The notes below the pieces were generated by a model. It saw nothing but the letters and a program-made list of their open reading frames with translations, was not told the DNA's origin and ran no database searches. Shown piece after piece: positions 35,149 to 47,225 of a stretch of DNA of 47,225 nt (position 1 is the stretch's first letter; each line of letters opens with the position of its first letter). A program made the translations under genes and the position numbers. The stretch comes from an uncultured Acidobacteriia bacterium. Lineage in GTDB: Bacteria > Acidobacteriota > Terriglobia > Bryobacterales > Bryobacteraceae. The stretch lies in assembly GCA_903900705.1 (NCBI GenBank), contig CAIUOG010000158.1:1-47225 (forward strand). Reading direction: 5' to 3'.

Positions 35149-37650
<2,502 letters not shown>

Positions 37651-37698
37651 CTTTAATGTGCCCCCTTTTCGCGCTGTAACCGATGCATCTCTACTATC

Positions 37699-37728
37699 AA
37701 GATACTCTCCGGGGGCGGTTCGTTGCAA
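37699..37728 (-). promoter_or_regulatory. Candidate clpC promoter
   Basis: On the minus strand, TTGCAA (37728-37723), an 18-base spacer and TATCTT (37704-37699). Each box matches the sigma-70 consensus at four of six positions. The leader to ATG 37650 would be about 40 bases. No CtsR or CIRCE operator is recognised. Confidence 0.35.
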
Positions 37729-37749
37729 AATCGTTATGGACGGCAAAGT

Positions 37750-38148
37750 ATGACGCAACCTATGACGCAACCAGCGATCGGCGGCATCGCACCGTTCTTC
37801 ATCGTTCGGGACGTGTCGGCGGCCCTCACTTTCTATAGCGAGCGGCTGGGCTTTTCCGTGGTGTTCCGGGAACCGGAGGTCGAACCCTTCCTTGCCATCG
37901 TGCGGCGCGATGGCGCGATGATCTTCCTGAAAAGCGTGGACGCCGAGCCTCTCCCCAACTGCCGTCGGCACCCGGACGCCCGCTGGGATGCGTACCTGAA
38001 CGTTCCGGACCCGGATGCGCTGGAAGCGGAATTTCGTTCCCAGGGCGCAGGTTTTTCTGTGCCGCCGCGGGACACCGAAGACGGTCTGCGCGGCTTTGAA
38101 CTGCGGGATGCCGACGGTTACACGCTCTTCTTCGGACGCCCGCGCTAG
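37750..38148 (+). CDS. VOC superfamily (glyoxalase-like) protein
   Basis: A 132-residue protein with the paired beta-alpha-beta-beta-beta modules of the glyoxalase/bleomycin-resistance superfamily: FFIVRDVSAALTFYSERLGF (residues 15-34) and, in the second half, GLRGFELRDADGYTLFFG. The His/Glu metal set is only partly present (Glu116 in FELRDADG), so it may be a binding protein instead of a metal enzyme. The start is repeated: a twelve-base tandem unit encodes MTQP twice, giving ATG at 37750 and 37762. A TTG at 37723 is also in frame but less likely. Its end overlaps the convergent ATPase gene by four bases. Confidence 0.85.
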   Translation: MTQPMTQPAIGGIAPFFIVRDVSAALTFYSERLGFSVVFREPEVEPFLAIVRRDGAMIFLKSVDAEPLPNCRRHPDARWDAYLNVPDPDALEAEFRSQGAGFSVPPRDTEDGLRGFELRDADGYTLFFGRPR

Positions 38149-38828
38149 TCCGGAATCAGCAGTCCCGCTTCCAGTCTCAGCAGGCGGGGGCATTCGCGGG
38201 CGAAATGAAGATTGTGCGTCACCAGAATGGTGGTGAGGTTTCGATTGCGGCGCAGGTCGCTCAGCAGACCGAAGATTCGTTCGCCGGTGGCGGTGTCCAG
38301 ATTCCCGGTCGGTTCGTCGGCCAGCAGGAGGGACGGGTCTCCCACCAGGGCCCGGGCGATGGCGATGCGCTGCTGTTCGCCGCCCGAAAGTTCGCCTGCC
38401 CGGTGGTGTCCCCGGGCGCTGAGGCCAACCTCGTCAAGACAGCCGCGCGCCTCCGTCTGCGCTTTCGCCCGAGCCACGCCCCTTATCAGCAGCGGCATCA
38501 TCACATTTTCTTCAGCGGTGAACTCCGGCAGCAGATGGTGCTGCTGCCAGACATAGCCAATTTCCCGGTTGCGGAAGTCGGAAAGCCGCGCCTCCGGCAG
38601 CTTCGTCAGGTTCCGGTCGCGGTAGAAAATATCGCCGCTCGTGGGGCGGTCGAGCCCGGCCAGCAGGTGGAGCAGCGTGCTCTTGCCTGCGCCGCTCGCG
38701 CCAATGATCGCAATCTGGTCGCCCAACGCCACCTCAAGGCAGAGTTCTTTGAAAATGACCAGATCGGAATCGCCGGAGCGATAGATCTTTGTCAGTTTTT
38801 CAATCCGTATGAGCGGCGCGGAGTCCAA
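38145..38828 (-). CDS. LolD-type ABC transporter ATPase, without permease gene
   Basis: A 227-residue ATP-binding protein of the LolD/MacB class: Walker A GASGAGKST, Q-loop YVWQQHHLLPEFTAEENV, signature LSGGEQQR, Walker B LLLADEP and H-loop LVTHNL. LolD works with LolC/LolE to release lipoproteins from the inner membrane, but no FtsX-type permease is encoded next to it, so the partner must be elsewhere. The only start codon between the upstream stop and the first strand is TTG 38828, with no ribosome site. It overlaps the VOC gene by four bases at its 3' end and is divergent from the NHL protein gene. Confidence 0.88.
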   Translation of the reverse strand: MDSAPLIRIEKLTKIYRSGDSDLVIFKELCLEVALGDQIAIIGASGAGKSTLLHLLAGLDRPTSGDIFYRDRNLTKLPEARLSDFRNREIGYVWQQHHLLPEFTAEENVMMPLLIRGVARAKAQTEARGCLDEVGLSARGHHRAGELSGGEQQRIAIARALVGDPSLLLADEPTGNLDTATGERIFGLLSDLRRNRNLTTILVTHNLHFARECPRLLRLEAGLLIPD

Positions 38829-42791: not shown

Positions 42792-45700
42792 TCAGGGGAT
42801 CAGCTTCAGTTGTTGCGCGGCGGTCACGATGTCGCCCGCCATGGGCGCCGCCGCCGTTCCGCCATAATGTCCATTCTCCGCCAGAATCGAGAATGCGATC
42901 CGTTTGGCCTGGGGCGCGGGCGTTTCGGAATACGGCGCGAAGCCGATAAACCAGGCATGGGACGGCGCGTTCGCCAGTTCCGCCGTGCCTGTCTTACCCG
43001 CAATCGGCGGATTGATGGCGAGCAGCCGTTTCCCGGTCCCGCTGGTCACCACCGCCCGCATATCCTTACCCAGCAGGTCCGCCATCTTCTGCGGCAGCAG
43101 ACGCTGCGGCGCGGCCGTGCGGGTGTTGCTGTCATCCATCACCCAGCGGCCAAACGGCAGGCTGCCGCCGGATGCGATGGAAGCCGCCACGCGCGCCATC
43201 TGGAACGGCGAAACCACCACCTGGCCCTGGCCGTAGGAGATCTGCGGCATCTGCGGTTTCAGATTCGCCACCGTCGCCGGATTCGCGACGGCAATGCCGA
43301 TCATCTTCGCCGTGTCAAGCAACTGTTCCGGCCCCACTTTGTACGTGCCCAGCTGCGCGAAGTAGGCATTGCAGGAGACCGCAATGGCGCGGTTCATATC
43401 CAGCGTGCCATGCGCGCCGGTGTCTTCCACGTCGTCCCGGATCGGTCGCTTCGAATTGCCGATGAAGTTGCCGTTGCGGCCATCGGGCAGGCGGATGCAC
43501 TGGTAGGTCTGCGTGGCGAGCGCGGGGTCCAGCCGCAGCGCCGCAATGGCGGTCACGATTTTGAAGGTGGAACCAGGCGGATAGAGACCGTAACGGGCCC
43601 GGTCGAGCAATGCACCCGAGGTCTCGCCCACCGCGAGGCGCTCCTGCGCCAGGTCGGGCGAAGGCCAGTTGACGGAGGCGAGCAGGTCTCCGGTGTCCGG
43701 GTCCATCACCACCAGCGAACCCTTCTGCAAATGCTGTTCTTCGAGGCGCGCCTGGAGAATCTGCCCTGCTTTCAGCTGCAGCCCGGCGTGAATCGAAAGA
43801 TGCACGTTCCGCTCGCGCTGACGAATCTTCTTCACCGCCGGATTATCGGGCTCCCAGCGGTGCCGCAGCAGCGGCAGCAACTCGCGGTAGTCATAACGAA
43901 CCGTGTTGAACGGCTTGCCGTCCACGCCCTGGACTTCCACGATCCGGGCACGGTCGTCATAGCCCTGCAGCCGGATGGCCTCATCCCGCTCAACGAGGGA
44001 ACTATTGGGCGCGCCCCAGCTGGCGCGCGTCCGCAGGTCGCCCAGCAGATGGAACGCCAGAGCCCCCAGCGGATAATGGCGGAAATCGGCGCGATTGCAG
44101 GCTTTGTCGATATCGATTCCCATGTCGGCGTACTGCACGCGATGCTGTTCGAGTTCGGCCCAGTTACTGGTGGCGAGCGGCAGCCCGGTACGGTCGTAAA
44201 TGCTGCCGCGCCGCAGATCGTGGGCAGCGGCAATGAGGCGCGGGTTGTAGATGAAACGCCGGCCGCCATCGGCCTGCAGGACGAGCGTACCCTCACCGGC
44301 GATGGCATCCGCACGGAAAAGCTGCACATAGCCCGCTTTGCTGACCACGCAGAGCATCAGCGCCCCCACCACCATCCCGATCCAGCGCAGGCCCGCATGG
44401 AACGGCGCGGTGCGCGCCGCGGGAGCTTGCTCGCGGCCCAGCGCTACCAGGATTCCGAAGATCAGGAAGTTTGCCAGCATCGAGGTGCGGCCATAGCTGA
44501 GAAACGGGGTGGCGACGCCGGAGAGCGGGAACAGGTCCAGAATCCCGCCGGAGATCAGCAGCAGTTCGGCGCTCACCAGCAGCGCGAGGCCCAGCGCCAG
44601 GAAAAATGCGTAATCCGTGCGGGCGCGCCGGGCGATGCGCAGGGCCTGCCAGACCAGCAGCGCGAAGATTCCATACACGACGGCGATTCCGAGGAAGCCC
44701 CATTCCTCACCGAGCACGGCCACAATCAGATCCGTGTAGCCGGCGGGGATGACGTCCGCCTCACCCAGCCCAGGACCGGCGCCGAGCGGACCGCCCGAGG
44801 CCATCGCCCAGAGCGAGTGCACCACCTGGTCGCCGCCGCGCACCGTGTTGCTCCAGGGGGAGAGCCACATGGAAACGCGGTCGTGAACGGTCTTCGGCGT
44901 TCCGAGGTAGTAGCCGGTGAAAAAGCCGCCGAGCAGCGTGAGCATGCCGCAAATCGCAAGCGGCACACGGTTGCGGGCAATCGCATAAAGCGTGAGGAAG
45001 ACGGCGGCGAAGACCAGCGCCGGCCCCAGGTCCCGCTGCAGATAAAAGAAGAGAACCGCCACGCCGACGCCCAGAATCACCGGCGCGGCATACTGCAGCG
45101 GCGGCAACTCCACGCCCGGCACCAGGAAGCGCTTCTCGCGCAGCTGCCGCAGCATGGGCCAGCGTTTCGAGAAATATCCCGCCAGGAAGAAGACCAGCAG
45201 GATCTTGATCGCCTCCACAGGTTGGAACGGGCCCAGGTTCACCCGCGCGTCACTGCCGGTGGGTCCGGAGCCCAGAAAGATCAGGGCCAGCGAGAGCACA
45301 ATCGCGCCCAGCAGGGGGATGAAGCTGTAGCCGGACGTCGCCGCTTCCCAGTTCACGAAGCTCGCCGCCAGCATGAGCAGACAGCCGGCCGCGACACCCT
45401 GCGCGAACGGGACGAAGATCAGCGTGTCCCGCAGCGGATCTCGCAGGGCCACCATCAGCGCGAAGCCGATGCCCGTCAGAATCAGCAGCAGCGGCAGAAA
45501 TGCCCACGGGCCCGAAAAGCCTCGCGCCATCCACACCAGGCTGGCGAACAGGAAGGCGGCCAGGATCGCTCCGCCCCAGCGGTAGAACTCGCGCGTAAAC
45601 CCTGCAAGGTCGCGCACCGCGATCTGGGGTTTGATCTGCGCGAATTCAGCGGAAGTCAGCAGTGGAATCGTATTGGTTTTGGCGGCCTCCGCGCGTGCGC

Positions 45701-46094
45701 GGAACTCCACCAGGCCGCGGTTCTCCACTACCTCGCCCCTGGAGACGCGGAGGCGCGCCAGTGCGCCCGTATTGGTGAGGACTCCTCCTTCCGCGGCGAG
45801 CTGGTCGAAGATCCGGTGCGCGGCGAATTCCCGATCCGCGGCGTTCTGAAAGACCGCCAGCACCGGGTAGAGTTTTTGGGCGCTGTCCACCTTCGAAAGA
45901 TTGAGTTGCGCCACCGGGCCGGCCGAGCGCCGCAGTTTCGCCGTGTAGACCAGCCACCATGCGCCGGAGACGATCACCGCGGCCATCAGCAGCCAGAGAA
46001 ATTCCGGGGCACGCCCGGCGCGGCGAACGCGCGTGGCCGAACCGGCGGAACGCGCGGCGGCGCGGGATTCAGGGGTGCTGCGCGTAACGGCCAT
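42792..46094 (-). CDS. RodA/FtsW (SEDS) glycosyltransferase fused to class B penicillin-binding protein
   Basis: One 1100-residue protein with both halves of a peptidoglycan synthase. A membrane helix (32-52) precedes an unassigned outer region (53-165). The SEDS domain covers about 168-555: GLGEADVIPAGYTDLIVAVL carries Asp455 at the expected catalytic position, and LSGVATPFLSYGRTSMLAN (524-542) is the FtsW/RodA signature. A further helix (571-588) leads into the PBP part: RRGSIYDRTGLPLA (628-641), then the transpeptidase with Ser842-x-x-Lys845 (PPGSTFK), Ser907-Cys-Asn909 and Lys1034-Thr-Gly (GKTGTAEL). All catalytic motifs are intact. It begins one base after the kinase stop. RodA/PBP2 and FtsW/FtsI pairs are normally separate proteins. 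Confidence 0.95.
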   Translation of the reverse strand: MAVTRSTPESRAAARSAGSATRVRRAGRAPEFLWLLMAAVIVSGAWWLVYTAKLRRSAGPVAQLNLSKVDSAQKLYPVLAVFQNAADREFAAHRIFDQLAAEGGVLTNTGALARLRVSRGEVVENRGLVEFRARAEAAKTNTIPLLTSAEFAQIKPQIAVRDLAGFTREFYRWGGAILAAFLFASLVWMARGFSGPWAFLPLLLILTGIGFALMVALRDPLRDTLIFVPFAQGVAAGCLLMLAASFVNWEAATSGYSFIPLLGAIVLSLALIFLGSGPTGSDARVNLGPFQPVEAIKILLVFFLAGYFSKRWPMLRQLREKRFLVPGVELPPLQYAAPVILGVGVAVLFFYLQRDLGPALVFAAVFLTLYAIARNRVPLAICGMLTLLGGFFTGYYLGTPKTVHDRVSMWLSPWSNTVRGGDQVVHSLWAMASGGPLGAGPGLGEADVIPAGYTDLIVAVLGEEWGFLGIAVVYGIFALLVWQALRIARRARTDYAFFLALGLALLVSAELLLISGGILDLFPLSGVATPFLSYGRTSMLANFLIFGILVALGREQAPAARTAPFHAGLRWIGMVVGALMLCVVSKAGYVQLFRADAIAGEGTLVLQADGGRRFIYNPRLIAAAHDLRRGSIYDRTGLPLATSNWAELEQHRVQYADMGIDIDKACNRADFRHYPLGALAFHLLGDLRTRASWGAPNSSLVERDEAIRLQGYDDRARIVEVQGVDGKPFNTVRYDYRELLPLLRHRWEPDNPAVKKIRQRERNVHLSIHAGLQLKAGQILQARLEEQHLQKGSLVVMDPDTGDLLASVNWPSPDLAQERLAVGETSGALLDRARYGLYPPGSTFKIVTAIAALRLDPALATQTYQCIRLPDGRNGNFIGNSKRPIRDDVEDTGAHGTLDMNRAIAVSCNAYFAQLGTYKVGPEQLLDTAKMIGIAVANPATVANLKPQMPQISYGQGQVVVSPFQMARVAASIASGGSLPFGRWVMDDSNTRTAAPQRLLPQKMADLLGKDMRAVVTSGTGKRLLAINPPIAGKTGTAELANAPSHAWFIGFAPYSETPAPQAKRIAFSILAENGHYGGTAAAPMAGDIVTAAQQLKLIP

Positions 46095-46095
46095 T

Positions 46096-47225
46096 TCAGG
46101 GGTTCGCTTTCGGGTCGGATTTCAGATCGTTCTTTGTGGACGCGGGCAGGGCGGTCGCCTGTTGCGCCGCCGCCAGCGACTTCAGGGCCTGCTCCCGCTC
46201 CTGCGAAACCTTCTCAGCCAGCTGAATGCCGTTGAGGAACGGCGCGACGGAACTGTAGAGCCCCTGGGCATGCTCCAGATCCGTATCGGCATGCTTCAGC
46301 GCGTCCTGCATCTTGTCGATGTCGTGCGCCCGTTTCGCCTCCGCGATCCAGCGCTCGCCCCGCTTGCGGTACGCGTCGGCCAGAGCCTTTTGTTCCCGCC
46401 GCCCCGGCCGGAACCCGTTGCGCTGGGCCTGCTGCAATTCGTCTTCGGCCTGGTCGAGGTCGCTTTCGCTCATGTGAATGAGCGCCAGCCCCAGGTGCGG
46501 GTCGGCGGAATTCGGCAGCAGAGAACGAGCTTCTTCAAAGGCGGACCGGGACGCTTTCAGGTCCCCGGCGCGCAGGCGCAGATGACCGTCCACCAGCTTG
46601 GCTTTGCCGCGAATCGCCTTATCGTCCGGGGCGATGGAAATGGCCTGCGCGAGTGCCGCCTGGGCGCGCTTCCAGTCGCGGGAATAGACAGGCGTGCTTT
46701 CGCTGGCTTCGCGGTAATCGGCGATCACTCGGTCGGCTTCCGCCACGTAGCGTTCCTTCAGGCTGTTGCGCGCGGGGTAGAGCAGCCACGAGCCGAAGCT
46801 CTTTTTCGCGAGTTCCCGGTAGAGTTTCGCGCCCTCATCCGCCGCCAGCTGGCCGGAATCAATCTGCTTCCGCAGCGCCTCGGCGTTGTTCCACATGCGG
46901 ATCTCATACACGATCAGGAAGACCGCGGCAAGAAACGCCACCACGCTCGCGATAATGCTGATGCGCCTCAGTTCCCCGGTGAAACCGGCGGAGGTGGTGA
47001 TGCCCTTCGGCCCCCACCGGGCGGGCCTCGCGCCGGGCTGTGCGACGGGCAAAGGCGGGGGCGGCGCGGTCCGCCGCGTCTGCTCATCAGCCGGTGCATA
47101 CGCGGTCCGCCTTGTGGCGTCCGGATCCTGCGCGGCATCACCTCCGGCCGCGACGTTCCGCGGCTGCGCCAGTTGCTGCCATTCATGCAGCGCCGCCTGG
47201 AACTGGGCCGCGCTGGGGAAACGCC
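46096..47225 (-). CDS. Ser/Thr protein kinase, C-terminal part, with TM and TPR-like outer domain (partial)
   Basis: The frame is open to the window end; TTG 47052 is only the first start codon seen. The outermost visible residues, RFPSAAQFQAALHEWQQL (47168-47223), match the last helix of bacterial Ser/Thr kinase domains, so the catalytic domain should lie beyond the window. A Pro/Arg/Thr-rich juxtamembrane linker follows, then a membrane helix (ISIIASVVAFLAAVFLIVYEI, about 46900-46962), then about 285 residues outside with TPR-like helices (ALAQAISIAPDDKAIRG, AFEEARSLLPNSADPHLGLALIHM) instead of the PASTA repeats of PknB. It is one base from the SEDS-PBP gene. The kinase identity is strong inference from the tail plus context. 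Confidence 0.75.
   Translation of the reverse strand, partial: RFPSAAQFQAALHEWQQLAQPRNVAAGGDAAQDPDATRRTAYAPADEQTRRTAPPPPLPVAQPGARPARWGPKGITTSAGFTGELRRISIIASVVAFLAAVFLIVYEIRMWNNAEALRKQIDSGQLAADEGAKLYRELAKKSFGSWLLYPARNSLKERYVAEADRVIADYREASESTPVYSRDWKRAQAALAQAISIAPDDKAIRGKAKLVDGHLRLRAGDLKASRSAFEEARSLLPNSADPHLGLALIHMSESDLDQAEDELQQAQRNGFRPGRREQKALADAYRKRGERWIAEAKRAHDIDKMQDALKHADTDLEHAQGLYSSVAPFLNGIQLAEKVSQEREQALKSLAAAQQATALPASTKNDLKSDPKANP

Follow-up and report, generated by a model that had tools for sequence, protein, structure and literature searches.

The window analysed here is the whole stretch of 47,225 nucleotides of contig CAIUOG010000158.1 (assembly GCA_903900705.1), from an uncultured Acidobacteriia bacterium of the family Bryobacteraceae. 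On its minus strand lies a gene that joins a SEDS protein and a class B penicillin-binding protein (PBP) in one chain, flanked by genes for a Ser/Thr kinase and an FHA-domain protein (Table 1). Only two Pfam families were detected in the protein at E 0.01, namely FTSW_RODA_SPOVE (PF01098; residues 234-555, E 8.7e-48, 163.5 bits against a curated cut-off of 26.4) and Transpeptidase (PF00905; E 6e-35). The GT51 transglycosylase domain is not among them, and PF00905 is accompanied by the SxxK, SxN and KTG motifs, as befits class B. The position of D455 is presumably that of the catalytic Asp of SEDS proteins. A hydropathy scan predicted two helices ahead of the SEDS core (32-50 and 175-193), some ten within it and one at the start of the PBP (572-590). 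An AlphaFold model built from 108 sequences (mean predicted local distance difference test, pLDDT, 93.1; predicted template modelling score, pTM, 0.87) bears out this arrangement. A preliminary description, made from the sequence alone, had proposed a single chain of 1100 residues with both activities, without naming the strand. Asp455, Ser842, Lys845, Ser907 and Lys1034 are found where it had placed them, and the membrane helix of the PBP, given there as 571-588, is present.

Table 1. Coordinates of the fusion gene, its parts and its two flanking genes within the window.
Feature	Position	Strand	Basis
Coding sequence, SEDS - class B PBP fusion, 1100 aa	42792..46094	minus	Uninterrupted frame, ATG start, no internal stop; Pfam
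Conserved motif M-A-V-T-R-S, residues 1-6	46077..46094	minus	MAxT[RK]S-type motif in 66/83 acidobacterial N-terminal tails
First extra transmembrane helix, residues 29-57	45924..46010	minus	Predicted structure, hydropathy
Inserted domain between the two extra helices, residues 58-162	45609..45923	minus	Profile homology to armatimonad helix-hairpin-helix domain
Second extra transmembrane helix, residues 163-190	45525..45608	minus	Hydropathy, predicted structure
SEDS core, ten helices, residues 199-554	44433..45500	minus	PF01098; PDB sequence matches to RodA/FtsW; predicted structure
D455 codon, putative SEDS catalytic Asp	44730..44732	minus	D in 120/121 fusions
PBP transmembrane helix, residues 559-593	44316..44420	minus	Hydropathy, predicted structure
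Transpeptidase domain, residues 792-1090	42825..43721	minus	PF00905
SxxK motif, S842-K845	43560..43571	minus	
SxN motif, S907-N909	43368..43376	minus	
KTG motif, K1034-T1035-G1036	42987..42995	minus	
Downstream FHA-domain protein, 263 aa	41978..42769	minus	Pfam FHA, E 2.2e-6; position conserved
Upstream Ser/Thr kinase, C-terminal part (transmembrane segment, TPR), cut by contig end	46096..47225	minus	Frame starts inside the end of the kinase domain, judged from relatives

A search of other Acidobacteriota, suggested in the preliminary description, returned the same fusion repeatedly. Both halves were matched below E 1e-60 in 12 of 396 genomes of the phylum (own genome included, eight families); one of these, G258, has the halves split across two contigs, and G125, G325 and G059 are single-contig genomes with both halves. 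Within the order, 85 of 257 genomes have a match at E<=1e-50, some as contig fragments. Fusions also occur in the armatimonad phylum, where 59 of 201 genomes match an armatimonad fusion at 1e-60 (a few as fragments or separate genes), and in the bacteroidete phylum, where 15 of 395 match a Spirosoma fusion at 1e-60. The preliminary description had named a sequencing or assembly error joining two genes as one finding that would undo its claim; a stop codon lost in this way is ruled out by the presence of the same fusion in many genomes, single-contig ones included. Removal of near-copies and duplicates (162 to 128 to 121 frames) left 121 non-redundant fusion frames, 84 acidobacterial, 18 armatimonad, 17 bacteroidete and 2 from Rhodococcus plasmids; the contig fragment L012 stands outside this set. 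Two fusions in one genome were seen in G623 (L088, L089), G509, G558, G603, G605 and G621, on different contigs in G623, G558 and G603, and the two copies of G623 fall in different subclades of the trees described below, each with an operon of its own.

The catalytic positions are strongly conserved: D455, S842, K845, S907 and N909 are kept in 120 of the 121 frames and K1034 in 118, and the SEDS Asp together with the SxxK, SxN and KTG residues is intact in 117. These intact motifs suggest that the fusion is catalytically active. The four exceptions are L104 and L170, with broken or truncated frames, and two degenerate armatimonad fusions that are possible pseudo-enzymes. One of the latter (L189 7911-11216, genome G1093) keeps the SEDS Asp but no longer has Ser and Lys in SxxK, Asn in SxN or TG in KTG; in the other (L190 7969-11271, genome G1154) SxxK is kept, but the SEDS Asp, the SxN Ser and the KTG Lys and Gly are lost.

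In its own genome, which holds three SEDS genes and six transpeptidase domains, the fusion is a third SEDS-PBP pair. A separate RodA gene adjoins PBP2 on contig C91, and an FtsW-like gene (317.7 bits, cut-off 337.5) stands with an FtsI/SpoVD-like gene on contig C142, just or well below the respective NCBIfam cut-offs. Further SEDS genes or places, two or more with split hits counted once, were likewise found in 19 of another 20 genomes (19 carrying the fusion, and G1070 the unfused pair); G1153 has one.

The kinship of the two halves was traced in two quick trees without bootstrap. The SEDS tree has 87 rows and includes 65 of the 121 fusions; the transpeptidase tree has 77 rows and includes 64. 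L190, which has a very long branch, was left out of the transpeptidase tree and of the approximately unbiased (AU) test, and an Arthrobacter pair with its SEDS in two frames (L138) out of both trees. In both, the acidobacterial, armatimonad and bacteroidete fusions occupy one side of a branch (Shimodaira-Hasegawa-like approximate likelihood ratio test, SH-aLRT, 99), apart from the bacterium's own RodA/PBP2 and FtsW/FtsI. The nearest lines are in both cases a Nonomuraea pair, a Monoglobus pair and unfused armatimonad pairs, in a branching order that differs between the trees. The Nonomuraea pair adjoins a PP2C gene and two kinase genes, from which it was given the name RodA/PbpA, and the Monoglobus pair adjoins an FHA gene. 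Both fusion halves group, in these trees with a single actinobacterial pair, with kinase- or FHA-linked pairs and not with canonical ones. The unfused armatimonad genes lie side by side in L188, L191, L192 and L202, with a 4-nucleotide overlap in L191 and L192 and small gaps in L188 and L202, and a kinase-like frame follows downstream in all four (short in L192). They share with the fusion a SEDS gene adjoining a class B PBP and, in the three SEDS proteins scanned, 12 helices, but have two frames where the fusion has one; they look like the state before fusion.

A natural SEDS-PBP fusion in a single open reading frame is mentioned in one sentence of PMC10449877, citing the Rhodococcus RHA1 genome. 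Two Rhodococcus fusions were found here on large linear plasmids (L137 8812-11652 and L140 5287-8112; NZ_CP070615 and NZ_CP046575), presumably of the same type as that of RHA1. They also consist of one frame with SEDS before PBP, but their halves are of RodA-PBP2 type and fall with RodA/PBP2 in the trees, and kinase, PP2C and FHA neighbours were not found at their loci. A single clade with the other fusions was rejected for SEDS (AU p 3.7e-11), and the transpeptidase tree agrees. The trees thus indicate that the Rhodococcus fusions arose independently and that SEDS-PBP fusion has happened at least twice.

The genes around the fusion form a recurrent operon, which in relatives reads FhaA_N plus FHA protein, PP2C phosphatase with beta-helix, Ser/Thr kinase with TPR, fusion, FHA protein. 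Across 60 acidobacterial loci with long flanks, a kinase gene was found no more than 8 kb away and in the same orientation in 60, an FHA gene in 57, a PP2C gene in 55 and all three in 53, a count that overlooks the FhaA_N gene of L083, detected by Pfam. The FhaA_N domain is present on the upstream FHA gene in L013 and L083. Ten bacteroidete loci have FHA (10), PP2C (7) and kinase (6) neighbours. The bacterium's own genome likewise has linked FhaA_N/FHA, PP2C and kinase genes, spread over two contigs: the first 561 bases of contig C174 match window positions 46665-47225 at 98.6% (8 mismatches), and C174 carries the kinase domain, a PP2C gene (76% against the query, which came from a relative) and an FhaA-like gene. 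The assembly breaks within the kinase gene, perhaps from a mixture of strains. A plasmid of Spirosoma oryzicola (NZ_CP089545; L135 2724-13280) holds an FHA gene, a PP2C gene, two kinase genes, the fusion and an FHA gene, which suggests that the operon can move. A few kb from the operon, at 35149-38193 on the minus strand of the window, lies a gene for a ClpA/ClpB-type AAA protein with Clp_N domains; no link to the operon was seen.

The N-terminal part distinguishes the fusion from ordinary SEDS proteins. Nonomuraea RodA and the unfused armatimonad SEDS proteins of L191, L192 and L202 have 12 predicted helices, of which two are extra N-terminal ones with a short loop between them; the same crude helix rule gave 8 for RodA and 10 for FtsW of the bacterium itself. 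In the fusions this loop is occupied by the inserted domain. The armatimonad version is a Pfam HHH_3 (helix-hairpin-helix) domain (E 1.2e-19 in L184), and a scan of ten N-terminal pieces detected HHH_3 in 3 of 3 armatimonad, 0 of 5 acidobacterial and 0 of 2 bacteroidete sequences. The inserted domain of the window protein has no Pfam match. Its AlphaFold model (pLDDT 88.1, pTM 0.79) found no fold match in the PDB (best E 1.8), and PDB sequences gave weak matches only, the best at E 0.1 to EEPD1, a protein with helix-hairpin-helix motifs. Since neither search gave a good match, the helix-hairpin-helix kinship rests on the profile-profile comparison of the acidobacterial with the armatimonad domain (99.0% probability, E 6e-18). 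Ahead of the first helix, the MAxT[RK]S motif of the otherwise variable acidobacterial tails exceeds the 1.9 occurrences in shuffled tails (Table 1). The cytoplasmic linker was also considered as a place for a phospho-threonine site and was rejected: Thr occurs in 68 of 108 linkers at no evident conserved place.

Taken together, these features make it probable that the fusion serves as an accessory synthase of peptidoglycan and represents a RodA-PbpA pair of the kind encoded in Ser/Thr kinase clusters, joined in one chain. A number of observations weigh against this interpretation. The neighbour counts come from profiles built from 14-16 of those same acidobacterial loci, and the trees hold one actinobacterial pair only. 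Nine armatimonad loci have few such neighbours (kinase 3, FHA 1, PP2C 1), so a fusion can occur without the control genes. The kinases scanned carry TPR and not PASTA, the Monoglobus SEDS has 10 helices by the crude rule, and MAxT[RK]S, a pattern picked post hoc from an alignment of acidobacterial sequences that share descent, does not occur in any of the 15 bacteroidete and 18 armatimonad tails. The PBP_dimer_2 pedestal of PbpA, which was found in the Nonomuraea protein, was seen at no better than E 0.009 in an armatimonad fusion; neither it nor PBP_dimer matched the window protein at E 0.01, and among eight fusions scanned weak pedestal matches below the curated cut-off were seen in L014, L082 and L094. 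In a Foldseek comparison the PBP half resembles Mycobacterium tuberculosis PbpA (3un7; 26% identity, root mean square deviation 4.9 A, TMt 0.73), but Pseudomonas aeruginosa PBP3 chains outrank it by E-value, though with a deviation of some 11 A. An equal or better fit is given by a Klebsiella PBP3 chain (8gpw_B; TMt 0.79, 5.4 A) and by Atopobium chains (TMt 0.76-0.77). PbpA and the Atopobium chains show less distortion than the P. aeruginosa chains, and no SEDS chain is among the 50 matches listed. The modelled fold supports class B and not PbpA in particular, for which reason our confidence was lowered slightly.

Other explanations have to be set against these data. It is very unlikely that the fusion is the cell's elongation synthase, RodA-PBP2 in one chain, as the preliminary description had implied. 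The reaction pair and domain order would be the same, and a synthetic Escherichia coli fusion of that order works, according to PMC10449877. The equivalog models, however, give the fusion only 133.6 bits for RodA (TIGR02210, cut-off 336.7) and 158.2 for PBP2 (TIGR03423, cut-off 455), far from the 404 and 637 bits of the separate genes on C91; it is also far under the FtsW cut-off. Together with those separate genes and both trees, which set the fusion apart, these scores led us to reject a canonical RodA-PBP2 identity; in the order, moreover, 172 of 257 genomes lack a match at 1e-50.

More improbable still is that the frame is translated as, or cut into, two proteins and the fusion only apparent. 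An ATG, GTG or TTG lies near the junction in 103 of the 121 frames, against 102.2 in the control, and starts with a Shine-Dalgarno-like site, found there in 10 frames where random stretches of frame predict 8.9, are not clearly enriched. Such starts being about as common elsewhere in the frame, there is no clear sign of an internal second gene start. Less improbable, though unlikely, is that the protein is a sensor or scaffold without a part in wall synthesis, or polymerises a product other than peptidoglycan. Its divergence from the canonical families, the large inserted domain and the lost catalytic residues of the two degenerate armatimonad fusions would fit such a role; the motif residues intact in nearly all other frames speak against it.

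In the accessory synthase that we favour, the SEDS half would act as a polymerase of lipid II at the outer face of the membrane. Its C-terminal linker, lying in the cytoplasm, would run straight into the PBP helix. The transpeptidase would thereby be kept beside the polymerase and could cross-link the nascent strand, with the two most likely locked at 1:1. Operon content and the actinobacterial analogy suggest that phosphorylation of the synthase or its partners would be set by the membrane-spanning kinase together with the PP2C phosphatase, that the two FHA proteins would read phospho-threonine and recruit or brake the synthase, and that the domain between the extra helices may report the outside, or a partner, to it. 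The cytoplasmic N-terminal MAxT[RK]S motif is a possible docking site. Judged by gene content, the synthase is probably gated by Ser/Thr phosphorylation. The preliminary description had held that the fusion removes one control step; the conservation of kinase, phosphatase and FHA genes next to it suggests instead that control was kept or added. Its scattered distribution, and the standard pairs found beside it, speak for a role that is conditional and not essential.

The closest known counterpart is the actinobacterial cluster fhaA-fhaB-pstP-rodA-pbpA-pknA-pknB, as given in PMC6554272 and PMC11898655. It shares with the operon described here the FhaA_N plus FHA protein, a second FHA protein, the PP2C phosphatase, the kinase, the SEDS protein and the class B PBP, and the one actinobacterial RodA examined, from Nonomuraea, has the two extra N-terminal helices and is among the nearest lines in both trees. 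It differs in that rodA and pbpA are separate, no domain is inserted between the extra helices, the kinase has PASTA instead of TPR and follows the synthase, and PbpA has the PBP_dimer_2 pedestal; the fusion, moreover, is accessory, beside a separate RodA/PBP2. The RodA-PBP2 complex (6pl5; E. coli 8tj3) also combines a SEDS polymerase with a class B transpeptidase, but is encoded by two genes in nature and contains a canonical SEDS and a PBP2 pedestal that has MreC as a partner. As a natural model of this complex, the use proposed in the preliminary description, the fusion is less direct than expected: it belongs to another SEDS line, with two extra helices and an inserted domain, and there is already a structure of a synthetic E. 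coli RodA-PBP2 fusion, active and of the same domain order (PMC10449877). Such activity of synthetic fusions makes a working natural one plausible. No report of SEDS-PBP fusions in kinase operons was found in searches of an open-licence library (PMC), subscription papers lying outside its coverage.

A more far-reaching picture, which is possible but rather doubtful as a whole, is that of a self-contained phosphorylation-gated synthase with outer sensor domain, polymerase and cross-linker in one chain, switched by kinase, phosphatase and FHA proteins via the N-terminal threonine motif. Its operon would derive from an actinobacterial-like pair and would have spread between phyla, also by plasmid, as an alternative machinery for growth in portable form.

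Mycobacteria employ such a cluster to control their growth. There its genes depend on one another, and both kinases, PknA and PknB, are essential (PMC6554272), which makes kinase control of RodA and PbpA hard to dissect. With the same parts list, standard synthases kept beside it and catalysis presumably united in one chain, the system described here could allow the kinase-to-synthase link to be rebuilt at fixed stoichiometry. This kind of wall-signalling operon extends well past Actinobacteria.

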